The notes beneath the pieces were generated by a model. The model was not told the DNA's origin. It made no database searches and worked only from the letters and a program-made list of their open reading frames with translations. Both the position numbers and the translations under genes were made by a program. This document shows, piece by piece, positions 32,842 through 39,333 of a DNA stretch of 64,000 nt. This DNA is from Rhodospirillaceae bacterium (GTDB lineage Bacteria; Pseudomonadota; Alphaproteobacteria; Rhodospirillales; Rhodospirillaceae), in contig JAQWQC010000013.1 in the NCBI GenBank assembly GCA_029245025.1, positions 62,001-126,000 of the forward strand, written 5' to 3'. Positions within the stretch are counted from its first letter, which is position 1. Every line of letters starts with the position of its first letter.

Positions 32842-34440
32842 ATGCAAATGGGACATCCCAAGAAGTGTAGAGAGGCGGTGACCTTTGCGATGTGCGTTGT
32901 TCTGATGACGACGTCCGCCTTGGCCCAAGACCTGCGGGTGTTTCGGCGTGGCGGAAGTGGCGATCCAGAAAGCCTCGACCCGCACAAACTTCTCAGCGCT
33001 TTCGAATCCACGATTATGACAGACATGTTTGTCGCCCTGGCAACGACTTCGCCAGAGGACGACCCTATCCCAGGCTCAGCAGAATCCTGGGCAATCAGTG
33101 ACGACGGTCTGACATATACTTTTGACATGCGTGATGGACTGCTGTGGTCCGATGGAACACCAATCGACGCGTATGATTTCCTATACACTTTTCGTCGCCA
33201 ACTTGATCCCGCCACAGCGTCCCGTACTGCAGAATATTTTACGCCAATTATAAATGCAGAGGCCGTTCTACGCGGAGACTTACCCGTGGAGGGTCTTGGT
33301 GTCGAAGCAATTGATTCAGACACGCTGGTTATCAGGCTCGCATACCCGGCACCCTATCTGATGGACATTCTCGCCATTGACGCTCGCCCAGCGCCCAAAC
33401 ACGTTGTCGAGAAATACGGCGCTGAATGGACCCGCCCGGAGAACATGGTCGTAAACGGCCCATTCAAATTAGCCGAGTGGTTGCCAGGGTCGCATGTCAA
33501 ACTGGTAAAGAATGAGTACTTTTACGATGCAAAGAATGTTCAATTAGATGTGGTTTACCATGTCCCGTCTGAAGACATGAACACCGCCTTCCGACGGTTT
33601 CAATCAGGAGAGCTGAACGCCCTCGTATTCTTCCCACCCAATCAACTCAGTATGATTCAAGAATCAATGCCAGAGACTCTTCGAGTCACACCCGGGCTGA
33701 CGACAGAACTCTACCTATTTAATACGAAACACCCTCCCTTTGACGATGTCAGGGTTAGGCGTGCTTTATCGATGGCGGTGGATCGGGAAACCTTGGTGAA
33801 TCGTGTCCTGCGTACAGGCGAAATTCCCGCCTACAGCTATATCCCTCCTACAGTGCGCAACTACGAAAAACGCCCAAAAGCTGACTTCGCTAGCCTGCCC
33901 ATGAAAGAACGACGCGTTGAGGCGAAAAGACTGCTGACAGAAGCTGGCTTTGGCCCAGGCAACCCGTTGGTAGTTCCACTACGCTACAACACCCAAGACT
34001 TACAGGCGCGTCAGGCGGCCGCGATCGGTGCCATGTGGCAGCAGGTTGGTGTCCGGACGGAGTTGTTCAACACCGAACGTAAGATGCTGGCATCGGATCG
34101 CATGAATAATAATTTCAGCGTGGCCCGTTATCTTCACGTCGCAGGAAATTACGAACCAGCCTCGTTTATTCAGTTCTTACAATCCGACCTTAGTTCCCGA
34201 AACTTTACCCAATATGACAGCGCGGCCTTCAACGCCCTATTCTTGAAGGCCTGGCGCGTAAACGATCCGGAAGAACGTGCAAAATTAACCTATGAAGCGG
34301 AGCGACAGGCCTTGGCCGACCAGCCCATGATACCCCTGTATTTCTATTCTGGGAGGCGCTTAGTACGTCCCAATATCAGCGGCTGGGTTGATAATGCGCG
34401 CGGGGTATATCCGTCTCGCTGGCTAGCATTCAAGGAGTAG
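32842..34440 (+). CDS. Peptide/oligopeptide ABC transporter substrate-binding protein (OppA-like)
   Basis: The 532-aa precursor has a signal peptide (about residues 1-28, ending ALAQD) and the SBP_bac_5 fold: GSGDPESLDPHKLL at the start, WAISDDGLTYTFDMRDGLLWSDGTP, MVVNGPFKLAEWLPGSHVKL, and VRRALSMAVDRETLV. It would bind peptides in the periplasm for an ABC importer. No permease or ATPase gene is adjacent, so it may use a transporter coded elsewhere. Confidence 0.85.
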   Translation: MQMGHPKKCREAVTFAMCVVLMTTSALAQDLRVFRRGGSGDPESLDPHKLLSAFESTIMTDMFVALATTSPEDDPIPGSAESWAISDDGLTYTFDMRDGLLWSDGTPIDAYDFLYTFRRQLDPATASRTAEYFTPIINAEAVLRGDLPVEGLGVEAIDSDTLVIRLAYPAPYLMDILAIDARPAPKHVVEKYGAEWTRPENMVVNGPFKLAEWLPGSHVKLVKNEYFYDAKNVQLDVVYHVPSEDMNTAFRRFQSGELNALVFFPPNQLSMIQESMPETLRVTPGLTTELYLFNTKHPPFDDVRVRRALSMAVDRETLVNRVLRTGEIPAYSYIPPTVRNYEKRPKADFASLPMKERRVEAKRLLTEAGFGPGNPLVVPLRYNTQDLQARQAAAIGAMWQQVGVRTELFNTERKMLASDRMNNNFSVARYLHVAGNYEPASFIQFLQSDLSSRNFTQYDSAAFNALFLKAWRVNDPEERAKLTYEAERQALADQPMIPLYFYSGRRLVRPNISGWVDNARGVYPSRWLAFKE

Positions 34441-34601
34441 ACCTATTTCCCAAATAAATCCAATTACTTAGGGGGTTTCTGGCGAAGCAGTCGGTTGGGT
34501 CCGGCCAATGACCGCCGTAATAACGACAATTGCACCGCTCGGAAGAGCACACTATCCTAGAGGCTTTCAGGCAGCTGCCTTACCGTAAGAGAGAGGGAAC
34601 C

Positions 34602-34981: not shown

Positions 34982-36181
34982 ATGATTGACCGTCGTACAC
35001 TTTTTGGCGCATCCGCTGCTGTGATGTCAGCTGTCAGTGCGTTGTTCGGTTCGAAGTCCGCGTCTGCGGCATCTGCGCCGGTGTCAAAGTTCAAAGGGGA
35101 CTACGAGCCCCGAGGCACCAATAAGCGATTGGAACGGTTGCCGCTGCTGGACCTGGAAAGCTATGACAATTTTCTCACTGGCTTGCGGGTTTGGTCAAGC
35201 AGCGCGTCAGGCAGGACGGCCCGCCGTCGTTTCAACGACTCCTTGAAAAATGCCGGGCTCGATCCACGCGAAGATCTGCCTCTGGAAAAGATTTTCCCGC
35301 ATGTGGAAAACGACACCTATCTTGGTACAGCCGCACGTTTGCGTACCAGTGGTCAACAGCTGATGTGGACGGCATTGCAAAAGCATTATCATGAGAATGC
35401 TGATACTTACCTTGATGAGCTGGAAGCAACGGACAATGTTGGCCCCGGTAAACTAGAGCTAAATCCGGACATGCATATTCCGGAGTACACCAAGTACGAA
35501 ATTCATATTCAGCCCGGTGGTTATGTCGGTGACGCGTTCGCCGGATATATCTATCAGTACGGCACGTATAATTTTTACCGTGGTGAAAATTATCAAGATG
35601 AAATTCATCGTAACATGGCGTCTCAAATGGCCACCCCGAAGGACGGGAAGGTTATGCGTATTCTCGATATGGGATGTAGCACTGGGCAGTTGACCGCCGC
35701 ACTTAAAGAGCGTTTTCCCGATGCGGAAGTATGGGGCATTGATGTCGGAGGACCGATGGTTCGCTACGCCCATATGCGGTGTGTGGATTTAGATATCGGT
35801 GCTAATTTCCGACAGGCGTTGGCGGAAGATACCAAGTTTGAGGATGGTTATTTTGATATCGTGACCTCTTACATCATGCATCACGAAGTTACAGCGGAGA
35901 AATCCAAGGAAATTATCAACGAGGCTTATCGCGTGCTGAGGCCCGGCGGTGTTTATTTCCCGATCGATTTTGAGACGGGGGCAGGCCGTGGCCGAGGCAA
36001 AAACGCCTACAGCCGGTTTAGCTCATGGCGCGATCACCGCTGGAACGAAGAAGTATGGCGGCCGGATTATTCTTCCGTCGACTTCAACGGCGAAATGCGT
36101 AAGGCTGGCTTTGATGTTGTCGATGAAGGTCCGCCAGCGTGGCGTAGCCGATATAACGTGCTTGGCACCAAGCCCGCTTAA
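34982..36181 (+). CDS. Tat-leader SAM-dependent methyltransferase-fold protein
   Basis: The 399-aa protein begins MIDRRTLFGASAA with a twin-Arg pair at residues 4-5 and a hydrophobic stretch to about 31, then an N-terminal region of unknown fold (32-215). A class I methyltransferase domain follows (about 220-399) with motif I ILDMGCSTGQL at 227-237, AEVWGIDVGGPMV, FDIVTSYIMHHEV, and EAYRVLRPGGVYFPIDFE. SAM is not known in the periplasm, so export of a methyltransferase fold is odd: either the leader is not cleaved or the domain binds something else. Upstream lies a 116-aa partner gene. Confidence 0.75.
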   Translation: MIDRRTLFGASAAVMSAVSALFGSKSASAASAPVSKFKGDYEPRGTNKRLERLPLLDLESYDNFLTGLRVWSSSASGRTARRRFNDSLKNAGLDPREDLPLEKIFPHVENDTYLGTAARLRTSGQQLMWTALQKHYHENADTYLDELEATDNVGPGKLELNPDMHIPEYTKYEIHIQPGGYVGDAFAGYIYQYGTYNFYRGENYQDEIHRNMASQMATPKDGKVMRILDMGCSTGQLTAALKERFPDAEVWGIDVGGPMVRYAHMRCVDLDIGANFRQALAEDTKFEDGYFDIVTSYIMHHEVTAEKSKEIINEAYRVLRPGGVYFPIDFETGAGRGRGKNAYSRFSSWRDHRWNEEVWRPDYSSVDFNGEMRKAGFDVVDEGPPAWRSRYNVLGTKPA

Positions 36182-36251: not shown

Positions 36252-36707
36252 TTAGATTTGGACGTCTTCTGCGAGAAGCTCATCCATCAGCTTGTAAAAG
36301 TCGCTCTTGAATTCTTCATGGTGTTCACCGGTGGCAGGTCCAGGGAATCCTGTATGGATGTGCCGTACCTCGTCTCTGCGGTCGATGCTTATCAGGGTGG
36401 GGTAGACCAGTACGGCATTGATCATCGGTAGAGTTTTGGCAGCGGCTTCCTTGTCCATGACCCCGGCAATAAGCATCGGATACTGAATGTCGTAACGGTT
36501 GGCATACCGACGGCAGGCGCGAGCGGCTTCGTTGAATTCTGTCGAGTGCTCATACATCAAACCAATGGCCTCCAGGCCGCGATCTTTGTTCTCGTTAAAG
36601 TAGGGTGAGAAGAAAGCAGATTCATCGTGACAAGTTGGGCACCAGTTACCACCGATGGTGACAACCACAACCTTGTTGGCAAATCGTTTGTCAGACAACG
36701 AGACCAT
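36252..36707 (-). CDS. Redoxin/TlpA-like thiol-disulfide protein, 5' truncated at the tRNA junction
   Basis: From the internal ATG at 36707 the product is 151 aa with the redox motif GGNWCPTCHDES and the family segments RGLEAIGLMYEHSTEF and SIDRRDEVRHIHTGFPGPATGEHH. Homology continues upstream of the ATG in frame through EGYDGLEFSFPDLDRN up to 36754, where the tRNA 3' half begins. Beyond that the frame is tRNA sequence and no family match remains. So the natural N-terminus (relatives are usually longer, with a leader) was cut off. It may be dead, or it may be translated from the internal ATG as a cytoplasmic protein. Confidence 0.7.
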   Translation of the reverse strand: MVSLSDKRFANKVVVVTIGGNWCPTCHDESAFFSPYFNENKDRGLEAIGLMYEHSTEFNEAARACRRYANRYDIQYPMLIAGVMDKEAAAKTLPMINAVLVYPTLISIDRRDEVRHIHTGFPGPATGEHHEEFKSDFYKLMDELLAEDVQI

Positions 36708-36755
36708 GTTCCTATCGAGGTCGGGAAACGAAAACTCTAGGCCGTCATATCCCTC

Positions 36756-36795
36756 TTTAATCAGCGGGTCCCAGGTTCGAGCCCTGGTGCGCCAG
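36756..36795 (+). other. tRNA 3' half (probably tRNA-Lys UUU): attachment-site-like junction
   Basis: From position 34 of a tRNA model the sequence fits: TTT (36756-36758), AA, anticodon-stem 3' strand TCAGC, variable loop GGGTC, T-stem CCAGG/CCTGG around TTCGAGC (36771-36787), acceptor 3' strand TGCGCCA and G. Before 36755 the D arm, anticodon-stem 5' strand and the conserved U33 are absent. Tyrosine integrases often cross over in the anticodon loop and leave exactly this 3' half at the far end of an island. The left neighbour is cut at this point and the right neighbour's frame reads into it. Confidence 0.7.
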
Positions 36796-37944
36796 CTTTT
36801 CGATTAAGTCGGTCATAAAGCGGGTACCAAGCTCGACCTGCTCTAAGGTGATGAATTCGTTGGGTTGGTGAGCCTGGGCAATGGATCCAGGGCCGCAAAT
36901 CACCGTCGACAGCCCGGCCTCCTGAAATTGCCCTGCCTCTGCGGCAAAGCTCACAGCCCGGACGGTGTTGTCTCCAGTCAACTGACGGCACAGCTGTTCC
37001 GCTTCCGAGTCGGTTTCGAATTGGAGGGCAGGGGTGCCAGCCCTGACTTGGATCTCGATATCGCTGTTGGGTCCTGTCTTACGCATGTCCGGCACGATGA
37101 CCTCACGGCAAAAGGTCTCGAAGCGGTCGATGTATGCTTGCGGGCCGTCACCAGGAAGGGATCGGATATCCCATGTGAGTTGGCAATGGCCCGCCATAAT
37201 GTTGAGAGCTGTTCCCCCTTGAATGACGTTTACTGTCATTGTTGTGTGGTCGGGCTCAAAGTTGTGGTCTTTGTTTGAGCCGCTCGCGTTTTCCGCCGTC
37301 ATGTCTGCCACAAACTGAATCAGTCGTCCGGCGGCCATCACAGCGCTGTGGCCCAACTGGGTTTGTGACGAGTGTGCTTCATGCCCGGTGATAAGTGCAT
37401 TCACCGCAGTGACACCTTTGTGGGCGGTCACCACTTTCATGTCCGTTGGTTCACCAACGATAACAGCCTTTGGTAAAGGTAGCTCTTTGCGGATGAGTTT
37501 GATTAAAGACGGCACACCGGCGCAGCCCACTTCTTCGTCGTAAGAAAAGGCGAAGTGGATCGGCACCGGTAAATTGGCCGCTACCATATCCGGCAAGGCT
37601 GCCAGGCTGGTGGCAAGAAAACACTTCATATCACAGGTGCCGCGCCCAAAAAGTTTGTTGTCTTTTTCGGTTAGAGCAAAAGGATCGGTTCGCCAATCCT
37701 GGTCGTCGATGGGGACGACATCGGTGTGACCAGAGAGAACCACGCCTCCTTCAACCATGGGACCGATGGTCGCAAGCAAGTTGGCCTTTGTGTTGTCTTC
37801 GTTGTGCACCAGCCGTGCCTCAATGCCGTATTCCTTTAGGCGTTCTTGAATGTAGGCAATGAGGTGCAGATTAGAATCCCGCGACACTGTGGGAAACGCC
37901 ACGAGACGAGCCAGTTCAGCGCGAACATCTGCAACAGCGACCAA
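36757..37944 (-). CDS. argE: Acetylornithine deacetylase (M20 family), C-terminus derived from tRNA DNA
   Basis: The 395-aa M20 peptidase has metal-site motifs VLSGHTDVVPIDD, RGTCDMKCFLA, SYDEEVGCAGV and the Cys/Glu-rich dimerisation region, with VVTAHKGVTAV typical of ArgE. It removes acetate from N2-acetylornithine in arginine synthesis. The last residues, AHQGSNLGPAD, are the translation of the tRNA 3' half on the opposite strand, so the natural end of argE was replaced or lies here by chance. The start is TTG at 37944, 3 nt after the cysS stop, so the two genes are coupled. Confidence 0.8.
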   Translation of the reverse strand: MVAVADVRAELARLVAFPTVSRDSNLHLIAYIQERLKEYGIEARLVHNEDNTKANLLATIGPMVEGGVVLSGHTDVVPIDDQDWRTDPFALTEKDNKLFGRGTCDMKCFLATSLAALPDMVAANLPVPIHFAFSYDEEVGCAGVPSLIKLIRKELPLPKAVIVGEPTDMKVVTAHKGVTAVNALITGHEAHSSQTQLGHSAVMAAGRLIQFVADMTAENASGSNKDHNFEPDHTTMTVNVIQGGTALNIMAGHCQLTWDIRSLPGDGPQAYIDRFETFCREVIVPDMRKTGPNSDIEIQVRAGTPALQFETDSEAEQLCRQLTGDNTVRAVSFAAEAGQFQEAGLSTVICGPGSIAQAHQPNEFITLEQVELGTRFMTDLIEKLAHQGSNLGPAD

Positions 37945-37947
37945 TGC

Positions 37948-39333
37948 TCAACCGCCTCGTCGCCATTTGGTGCCGTCCGGGCCGTCTTCCAAGGTAATAC
38001 CGCGCGCAAGGAGGCTGTCGCGTATGCGGTCAGACTCTGCGAAGTCCTTATTGGCACGGGCCGCGGTGCGTGCATGGATCAGAGTATCAATCTCCGCGTC
38101 TTCGTCGTTTCTGCCACCTTTGAGCCAGGTCTCTGGGTCTTGCTGCAGCAGGCCGAGGAGGTTGCCGCTTTTCAGCAACAGCCCCTTGAGTGAGGCGCGC
38201 TCCACATCTTTGTTGGAGGTATTTGCTGATTTGCACAGTGACGAAAGTTCCGCCAGTGCTCTCGGTGTATTTAAGTCATCGGATAGGGCGGAGAGTACAT
38301 TAGGGCAGGGCGTTGCATCTTGTGCAATATCAATATCATTCAGTTTGTCGAGTGTGCCGTATAGTCGGTCGAGGGTGCTTTTCGCCTGGGCAAGCAGATC
38401 TTGGGTCCAGTCCAGCGGTTGACGGTATTGGGCAGACAAAAGCGCGAAGCGAATGCTTTCACCGTTGTGTCCAGCTGCAAGCAATTGATCGACCGTCACG
38501 ATGTTGCCCAAGGACTTGGACATTTTGTCGGCGTTAACTGACAAAAAGCCGTTGTGCAGCCAGTGTCGTGCTAATGGTGCACCACCATGGGCGCAGGTGC
38601 TTTGTGCCACTTCGTTTTCATGGTGCGGAAAAATTAAATCGTGTCCGCCGCCGTGAATGTCGATGGTTTCGCCCAGGTGTCTTTCGATCATCGCTGAGCA
38701 TTCGACATGCCACCCGGGTCGTCCGCGTCCCCAGGGGCTGTCCCACCCGGGCAGTTTGTCGGTTGAGGGTTTCCATAAAACAAAGTCGCCCGGATTCTTT
38801 TTATAGGGCGCGACTTCCACTCGTGCTCCGGCCATCATGTCTTCTCGGTCGCGGTTGGAGAATTTGCCATAGGCGTCGAAAGACGTGACGTCAAACAGCA
38901 CGTGCCCTTCAGCTGCATAGGCATGCCCTGCGGTGATTAGGGATTCCATCATCGCGATCATTTCGCCGACGTGCTGGGTCGCAAAAGGTTCGATTGTTGG
39001 CGGCAGAACACCAATCGCACTTGTGTCGTTGTGGTAGTGCTGTGTGGTGACCGACGTGATTTCGGAAATCGGTTTGCCCGTTTCCTTTGCGGCTTCATTG
39101 ATTCGATCATCGATGTCTGTGATGTTGCGGGCGTAGATAACATGATCCGCGCCGTAGACATGACGAAGCAGCCGGAACAACACGTCAAACACCACAGCTG
39201 GACGGGCATTGCCGATATGGGCGCGGCTATACACTGTCGGGCCACACACATACATCGTCACCCGAGACGGGTCGACGGGAGCAAACGGCTCCTTCTTGCG
39301 TGTCAGAGTATTGTGTAGCGTTAAGGTCATCAT
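37948..39333 (-). CDS. cysS: Cysteinyl-tRNA synthetase
   Basis: This 461-aa class I synthetase has the HIGH-like motif [14 protein letters not shown], the KMSKS loop in DKMSKSLGN, and zinc ligands such as GWHVECSAM and [12 protein letters not shown]. It charges tRNA-Cys and is essential. The start is one of two adjacent ATGs at 39333/39330. It precedes argE by 3 nt, forming an operon on the minus strand. The hisI gene lies divergently, 124 nt away. Confidence 0.95.

Follow-up and report, generated by a model that had tools for sequence, protein, structure and literature searches.

In the 64,000-nucleotide stretch of Rhodospirillaceae DNA analysed here (the window), a 37-bp piece of tRNA sequence lies between the remainder of a redoxin gene and an argE-type peptidase gene, and these are flanked by a methyltransferase gene and cysS. 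The features of the locus, with the basis of each assignment, are as follows:

34982..36181, plus strand: methyltransferase gene, the ancestral left neighbour, used as a synteny anchor (synteny, domain scan)
36252..36758, minus strand: 3′ remainder of the redoxin gene, PF08534/PF00578 domain retained (domain scan, alignment)
36753..36758, plus strand: redoxin-side junction CTCTTT, with a straight microhomology TT (36757-36758), or CTCTT with one bulged T (alignment with G006 and G002)
36757..36793, plus strand: tRNA-Lys(CUU)-derived patch of 37 bp, tRNA positions 35-71 (37/37 match to G000:C10:77427-77463)
36757..37944, minus strand: argE-type M20 peptidase gene, its stop replaced and nine codons added (QGSNLGPAD) (ORF, alignment)
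36787..36793, plus strand: 7-bp microhomology GTGCGCC (minus strand, GGCGCAC) between the 3′ end of argE and positions 65-71 of the tRNA (alignment)
37948..39333, minus strand: cysS, the ancestral right neighbour, used as a synteny anchor (synteny, domain scan)

A search of the 3.1-Mb genome showed that the patch is identical at all 37 bases to the genome's own tRNA-Lys(CUU) gene, and an exact match of this length in 3.1 Mb is far beyond chance. The original prediction that a tRNA 3′ half stands here with no 5′ half was borne out, but its naming of tRNA-Lys(UUU) was not, since the own tRNA-Lys(UUU) gene, on contig C14, is 89% identical over the patch stretch versus 100% for tRNA-Lys(CUU) and is rejected as the source; the T-stem of the source, CCCAG/CTGGG, is that of tRNA-Lys(CUU). 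The half had also been described as intact up to the discriminator base; the 3′ half is real, but the match ends at position 71 and the ‘A’ taken for the discriminator is a base of argE. Neither ARAGORN nor Rfam called an RNA gene anywhere in the window, the patch included. In the assembly of 36 contigs, the patch stands in the interior of its contig (C7:98757 of 176213). The intact tRNA-Lys(CUU) gene is at C10:77393-77468, with rodA on one side and a DUF4116 gene on the other; the 10 ORFs scanned around it include no integrase, and no intact copy was found on contig C7, so that the nearby intact tRNA with an adjacent integrase that had been anticipated did not turn up. The T-stem allele of the patch is that of its own genome; it is missing from the nearest relative, G006, and is present in G002 and G004 too, and because five viral contigs carry identical 3′ halves the allele is no proof of an own-genome donor. 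As an observation on the intact locus itself, about 2.6 kb containing the DUF4116 gene separate tRNA-Lys from an amidohydrolase gene there (L040:9969-12570), the corresponding distance in G002 being about 0.7 kb, and this stretch is possibly the relic of an old tRNA-Lys insertion.

The ancestral state of the locus was read from relatives. The order methyltransferase, redoxin gene, argE, cysS is found in five of the six same-genus genomes (G001, G002, G003, G004 and G006, the methyltransferase match in G002 covering residues 121-399 only) and in G009, from another genus; the sixth same-genus genome, G005, keeps the order with the redoxin gene absent. In these relatives argE ends in GGCGCAC-TAA (G006, G003) or a variant of it, followed, except in G005, by the redoxin-domain gene on the same strand. 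The redoxin gene has 419-421 codons in G001, G002, G003 and G004 and 417 in G009; its domain occupies residues 262-392 in G003, and the start of the protein in relatives resembles, by eye, a signal peptide. Measured against G006, the window lacks 820 bp (818-826 bp across six relatives), namely the argE stop codon, the intergenic region with the redoxin promoter, the start and about 254 of the 420 redoxin codons, and has in their place the 37 bp identical to its own tRNA-Lys(CUU), with shared bases at both joins. Alignment with the relatives also confirmed that redoxin homology stops exactly where the tRNA sequence starts. The boundary between core genes on the right and accessory genes on the left that had been placed at this point did not hold up, as gene order is continuous across the patch in relatives, and the comparison of synteny that had been proposed for an island gave the same gene order without an insertion. 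Synteny is lost elsewhere, at window positions ~34440-34557, about 2.2 kb left of the patch and just upstream of a small gene that precedes the methyltransferase gene; the genes lying further left in G003, G004, G005 and G009 match contig C7, searched over its whole length, only weakly or not at all, and the contigs of G006 and G001 both end inside the small gene at this break. On the right, cysS (37948-39333) is 91.5% identical to its counterpart in G006 and 74% identical to those in G002 and G003, with the adjacent argE at 91% and 89%, a pattern of identities that may reflect a replacement of cysS in one lineage.

The two joins differ in the length of the overlap. At the argE join an overlap of at least 7 bp has a chance of 0.0004 in 400,000 random junctions. 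A 7-bp match near argE is not rare in itself (12 seven-mers in 800 bp versus 6.8 expected), and it is the use of one by the junction that is unusual. The full seven bases at the argE end are found in two of the seven aligned relatives (G006 and G003), the others differing by at least one base. At the redoxin join, where G006 reads CCCTCTTTGATG, the tRNA CTCTTAATCAG and the window CCCTCTTTAATCAG, the overlap is 2 bp (chance 0.16), or 5 bp (CTCTT) if one T is bulged.

Both neighbouring genes were altered. The argE frame now crosses the tRNA sequence in antisense and runs for nine codons to a TAA. The redoxin remnant has its domain intact and in frame, has lost the N-terminal part, promoter and start (~254 codons), and, its old stop TAA having become CAA, is two codons longer. 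In G006 the redoxin gene (L033) carries a frameshift that leaves only 85 codons from the start, and in G005 (L038) there is no redoxin gene beside argE; the gene therefore seems dispensable in the group, in which case the scar would be tolerated. The dN/dS of the remnant is low in every computable pair (0.03-0.14), and for the window-G006 pair it is 0.067, as against 0.051 in argE and 0.027 in the methyltransferase gene; the G001 argE rows, which look misaligned (dN ~0.5), were excluded from this comparison. Values as low as these would leave the function of the redoxin remnant undecided either way.

The age of the event was estimated from the part of the patch beyond the 7-bp overlap, about 30 bases, which show no change versus the source. 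The window-G006 dS is 0.43 for the methyltransferase gene, 0.68 for argE and 0.83 for the redoxin part, and half of this value (0.2-0.4) was taken as the branch length. Had the event been as old as the split from G006, 6-12 changes would be expected in the patch, with a probability of about 0.0025 or less of seeing none, and zero changes set an age limit of about 0.1 substitutions per site. The lack of change argues for a recent event, on the assumption of a freely evolving patch, though the patch now overlaps argE codons.

The wider occurrence of tRNA-Lys fragments was surveyed in the family. At a threshold of at least 93% identity, tRNA-Lys 3′ halves that start at positions 26-37 and end at position 76 occur in at least 13 places in at least 10 of 58 other family genomes (10 of the 13 listed places were read in sequence). 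In this family tRNA-Lys is a hotspot of integration. In G001, G045 and G010 the 3′ half shares its contig and strand with an intact tRNA 2-24 kb away. When 10 ORFs in the vicinity of these fragments, or of the corresponding intact tRNAs, were scanned, three proved to be integrases, all in G045 and adjoining two fragments; those scanned in G001, G010, G069 and G050 included none. Individual 3′ halves were seen beside tyrosine integrase genes (L206 and L207, G045) or near Fic-domain genes (L210 in G069; L208 in G010). With a one-base degenerate query, seven viral contigs matched the tRNA-Lys sequence, five by the 3′ half only, at 100% identity to the own tRNA, and two by a whole tRNA; in viral contig L232 an integrase adjoins the 3′ half, and in L236 the neighbouring ORF tested has no Pfam match. 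The genome of the window itself has two Phage_integrase matches, both XerC/XerD-like, in a search that covered tyrosine recombinases; the best NCBIfam models for the two proteins are Xer-type, the XerC/XerD equivalog scores lie below their cut-offs, and one protein passes the cut-off of the general model PRK00283.

Given these data, we favour, at about even confidence, a recent event in which, guided by microhomology, a templated short patch was inserted and sequence was deleted. In the course of replication or of the repair of a break, a strand that ended in CTCTTT in the redoxin gene would have paired, with one T bulged, with the anticodon-loop DNA of tRNA-Lys, the template being either the chromosomal tRNA-Lys gene or a short single-stranded fragment derived from it; the strand would then have been extended up to the acceptor stem and would have re-annealed at the argE end via the seven shared bases, the intervening sequence being skipped. 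This course is favoured by the complete identity over tRNA positions 35-71, by the own-genome T-stem allele, which G006 lacks although G002 and G004 have it in common, by the unchanged gene order of both flanks in six relatives, by the improbable argE-side microhomology, by the extra T, which from the alignment would agree with bulged annealing, and by the unchanged ~30 bp, which point to a recent event; in addition, the genome has no reverse-transcriptase family match, and its tyrosine recombinases are only XerC/XerD-like. Against it, a random template would rarely be a tRNA, because tRNA genes make up only ~0.1% of the genome, and the patch is a 3′ half from the anticodon loop on, as in the att duplicates of relatives. 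Moreover, the redoxin overlap is only 2 bp when no base is bulged, the 820 bp removed far exceed the length of the patch, the full argE-end heptamer in just two of seven relatives means that the ancestral state is read mainly from G006, and the identical viral 3′ halves weaken the allele as a mark of the donor. The starting point in the anticodon loop could also be left by two successive events, in which an element with a tRNA-Lys att site integrated off-target at CTCTTT and a deletion between the direct repeats GTGCGCC of the tRNA acceptor stem and the argE end then took the element together with the front of the redoxin gene. CTCTTT resembles the anticodon loop CTCTTAA, the edge of the patch falls in that same loop, and the family hotspot, the integrase genes adjoining two 3′ halves in G045 and one in a viral contig, and the identical 3′ half in five viral contigs all speak for such a course; we nevertheless regard it as rather unlikely, and place templated patching before it, because the redoxin site poorly resembles the anticodon arm and because an extra T is unexpected from precise strand exchange. 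Compared with the 17-bp anticodon arm, the site matches at 6/17 positions in G006 (in register, loop 5/7 and arms 1/5 and 0/5) and at 5/17 in G002, so that a site resembling an attB core with its arms was not found; 23% of positions on the contig score at least 6/17 and 42% at least 5/17, and of the 313 sites there that have CTCTT in register only 10 fall below 6, with a further 43 scoring exactly 6. A resemblance this ordinary for the contig lowers the probability of off-target integration rather than excluding it, since real secondary sites can be degenerate. Off-target integration also requires two events, and neither an element nor a non-Xer tyrosine integrase is left.

The remaining explanations were judged to be far less probable. 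An assembly artefact could be suspected in a 36-contig genome judged from its assembly alone, but is quite improbable, as the flanks are adjacent in relatives, the patch is in mid-contig, and a k-mer path through just 7 and 2-5 shared bases would be unexpected. It is very unlikely, too, that a tRNA-Lys 3′ half released by anticodon cleavage served as repair template or splint. The patch does start at the anticodon and consist of the 3′ half, and tRNA is much more abundant than any gene; however, positions 72-76 with the CCA are absent, certain positions in this stretch are expected to be modified in the tRNA and none of them shows a misincorporation, and DNA microhomology is enough to account for the joins. 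A reverse-transcribed insertion was rejected, there being no RVT_1 match in the genome by a profile search that was positive in 3 of 14 control genomes. Should the RNA-templated course be true, which is very doubtful, tRNA fragments would template bacterial chromosomal repair without a reverse transcriptase. The original prediction had suggested a displaced att site that bounds, on the right, a possible tRNA-integrated island; the 3′ half does begin at the anticodon loop and such arrangements are known in relatives, but the genes on both flanks are adjacent in G001, G002, G003, G004, G006 and G009, which excludes an island boundary at the patch, the fragment ends at position 71 and not 76, none of the 10 ORFs scanned around the intact tRNA, which stands on a different contig, is an integrase, and the synteny break at ~34.5 kb is away from the patch. 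This island reading, the least credible of all those considered, is wrong; what stands of the proposed trace of tRNA integration is that the site is a recombination junction and that tRNA-Lys is a hotspot in the family, and what falls is that it marks the edge of an island.

Pieces of 41 unique tRNA sequences were also surveyed in the genome, with the best 40 of 41 and the best 40 of 44 candidates scored. Besides the patch, two 3′-half-like pieces, of tRNA-Ala on C18 and tRNA-Phe on C1, were present among the matches scored, and no second clean tRNA patch was found among the candidates scored; the weak matches at C34:94130 and C20:193455 (E 0.34) were checked for whole tRNAs only. The tRNA-Ala(GGC) 3′ half (positions 33-76, 95% identity) at G000:C18:81773-81816 (L171:9774-9817, minus strand) lies between an alpha/beta-hydrolase gene and rpsB, within an unmatched stretch of ~285 bp, longer than the piece itself, where G006 has ~660 bp; it is a possible att remnant. 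The piece at G000:C1:134709-134755 (L167) is tRNA-Phe-like but degenerate: its 3′ half has 87% identity, and by eye a decayed 5′ half seems to be present as well.

Among known processes, short-patch double illegitimate recombination (SPDIR), which Harms and colleagues are said to have described in PNAS in 2016 and whose examples are reportedly laboratory mutants, is the closest in outcome. SPDIR joins by microhomology at both ends in a single step, when single-stranded DNA anneals at the replication fork, and microhomology-mediated template switching (MMBIR) likewise gives templated insertions. As in SPDIR, a short piece has been substituted whose 37/37 match to the own tRNA-Lys(CUU) fits a segment copied from another locus or from foreign DNA; of the two joins, that at argE shares 7 bp (chance 0.0004) and that at the redoxin gene 2 bp (chance 0.16), or 5 bp with a bulge. 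Unlike in SPDIR, ~820 bp of recipient sequence were lost for a 37-bp patch, and the mechanism is deduced. With MMBIR the event has in common that a distant template would have been copied and joined across a deletion by short homologies, the difference being that the accounts compared here concern mostly eukaryotes. Judged from sequence alone, the best fit in kind would be SPDIR or template switching, with the large deletion departing from the simplest form. Islands in tRNA genes, as treated in the Islander paper (PMC4383910), where 3760 of 3919 islands have a 3′ tDNA fragment, share with our patch a 3′ tRNA fragment running from the anticodon loop on, and a start at position 35 falls within the anticodon or T region expected of such fragments. 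Unlike in such cases, no island is present, both neighbours are ancestral, and the patch ends at position 71 through the argE microhomology; the fragment on C7 does not bound one segment together with the intact gene on C10, and the two Xer-type matches leave no non-Xer tyrosine integrase inside an element.

The event is real, ordinary in kind and clearly resolved, and since an isolated tRNA 3′ half can be a scar without an island, island finders based on such fragments need a synteny check. One review (PMC7192050) regards the natural frequency of SPDIR as insignificant. If the one-step course is true, the locus would be an instance of natural microhomology-templated patching that truncated one gene and lengthened the product of its neighbour.
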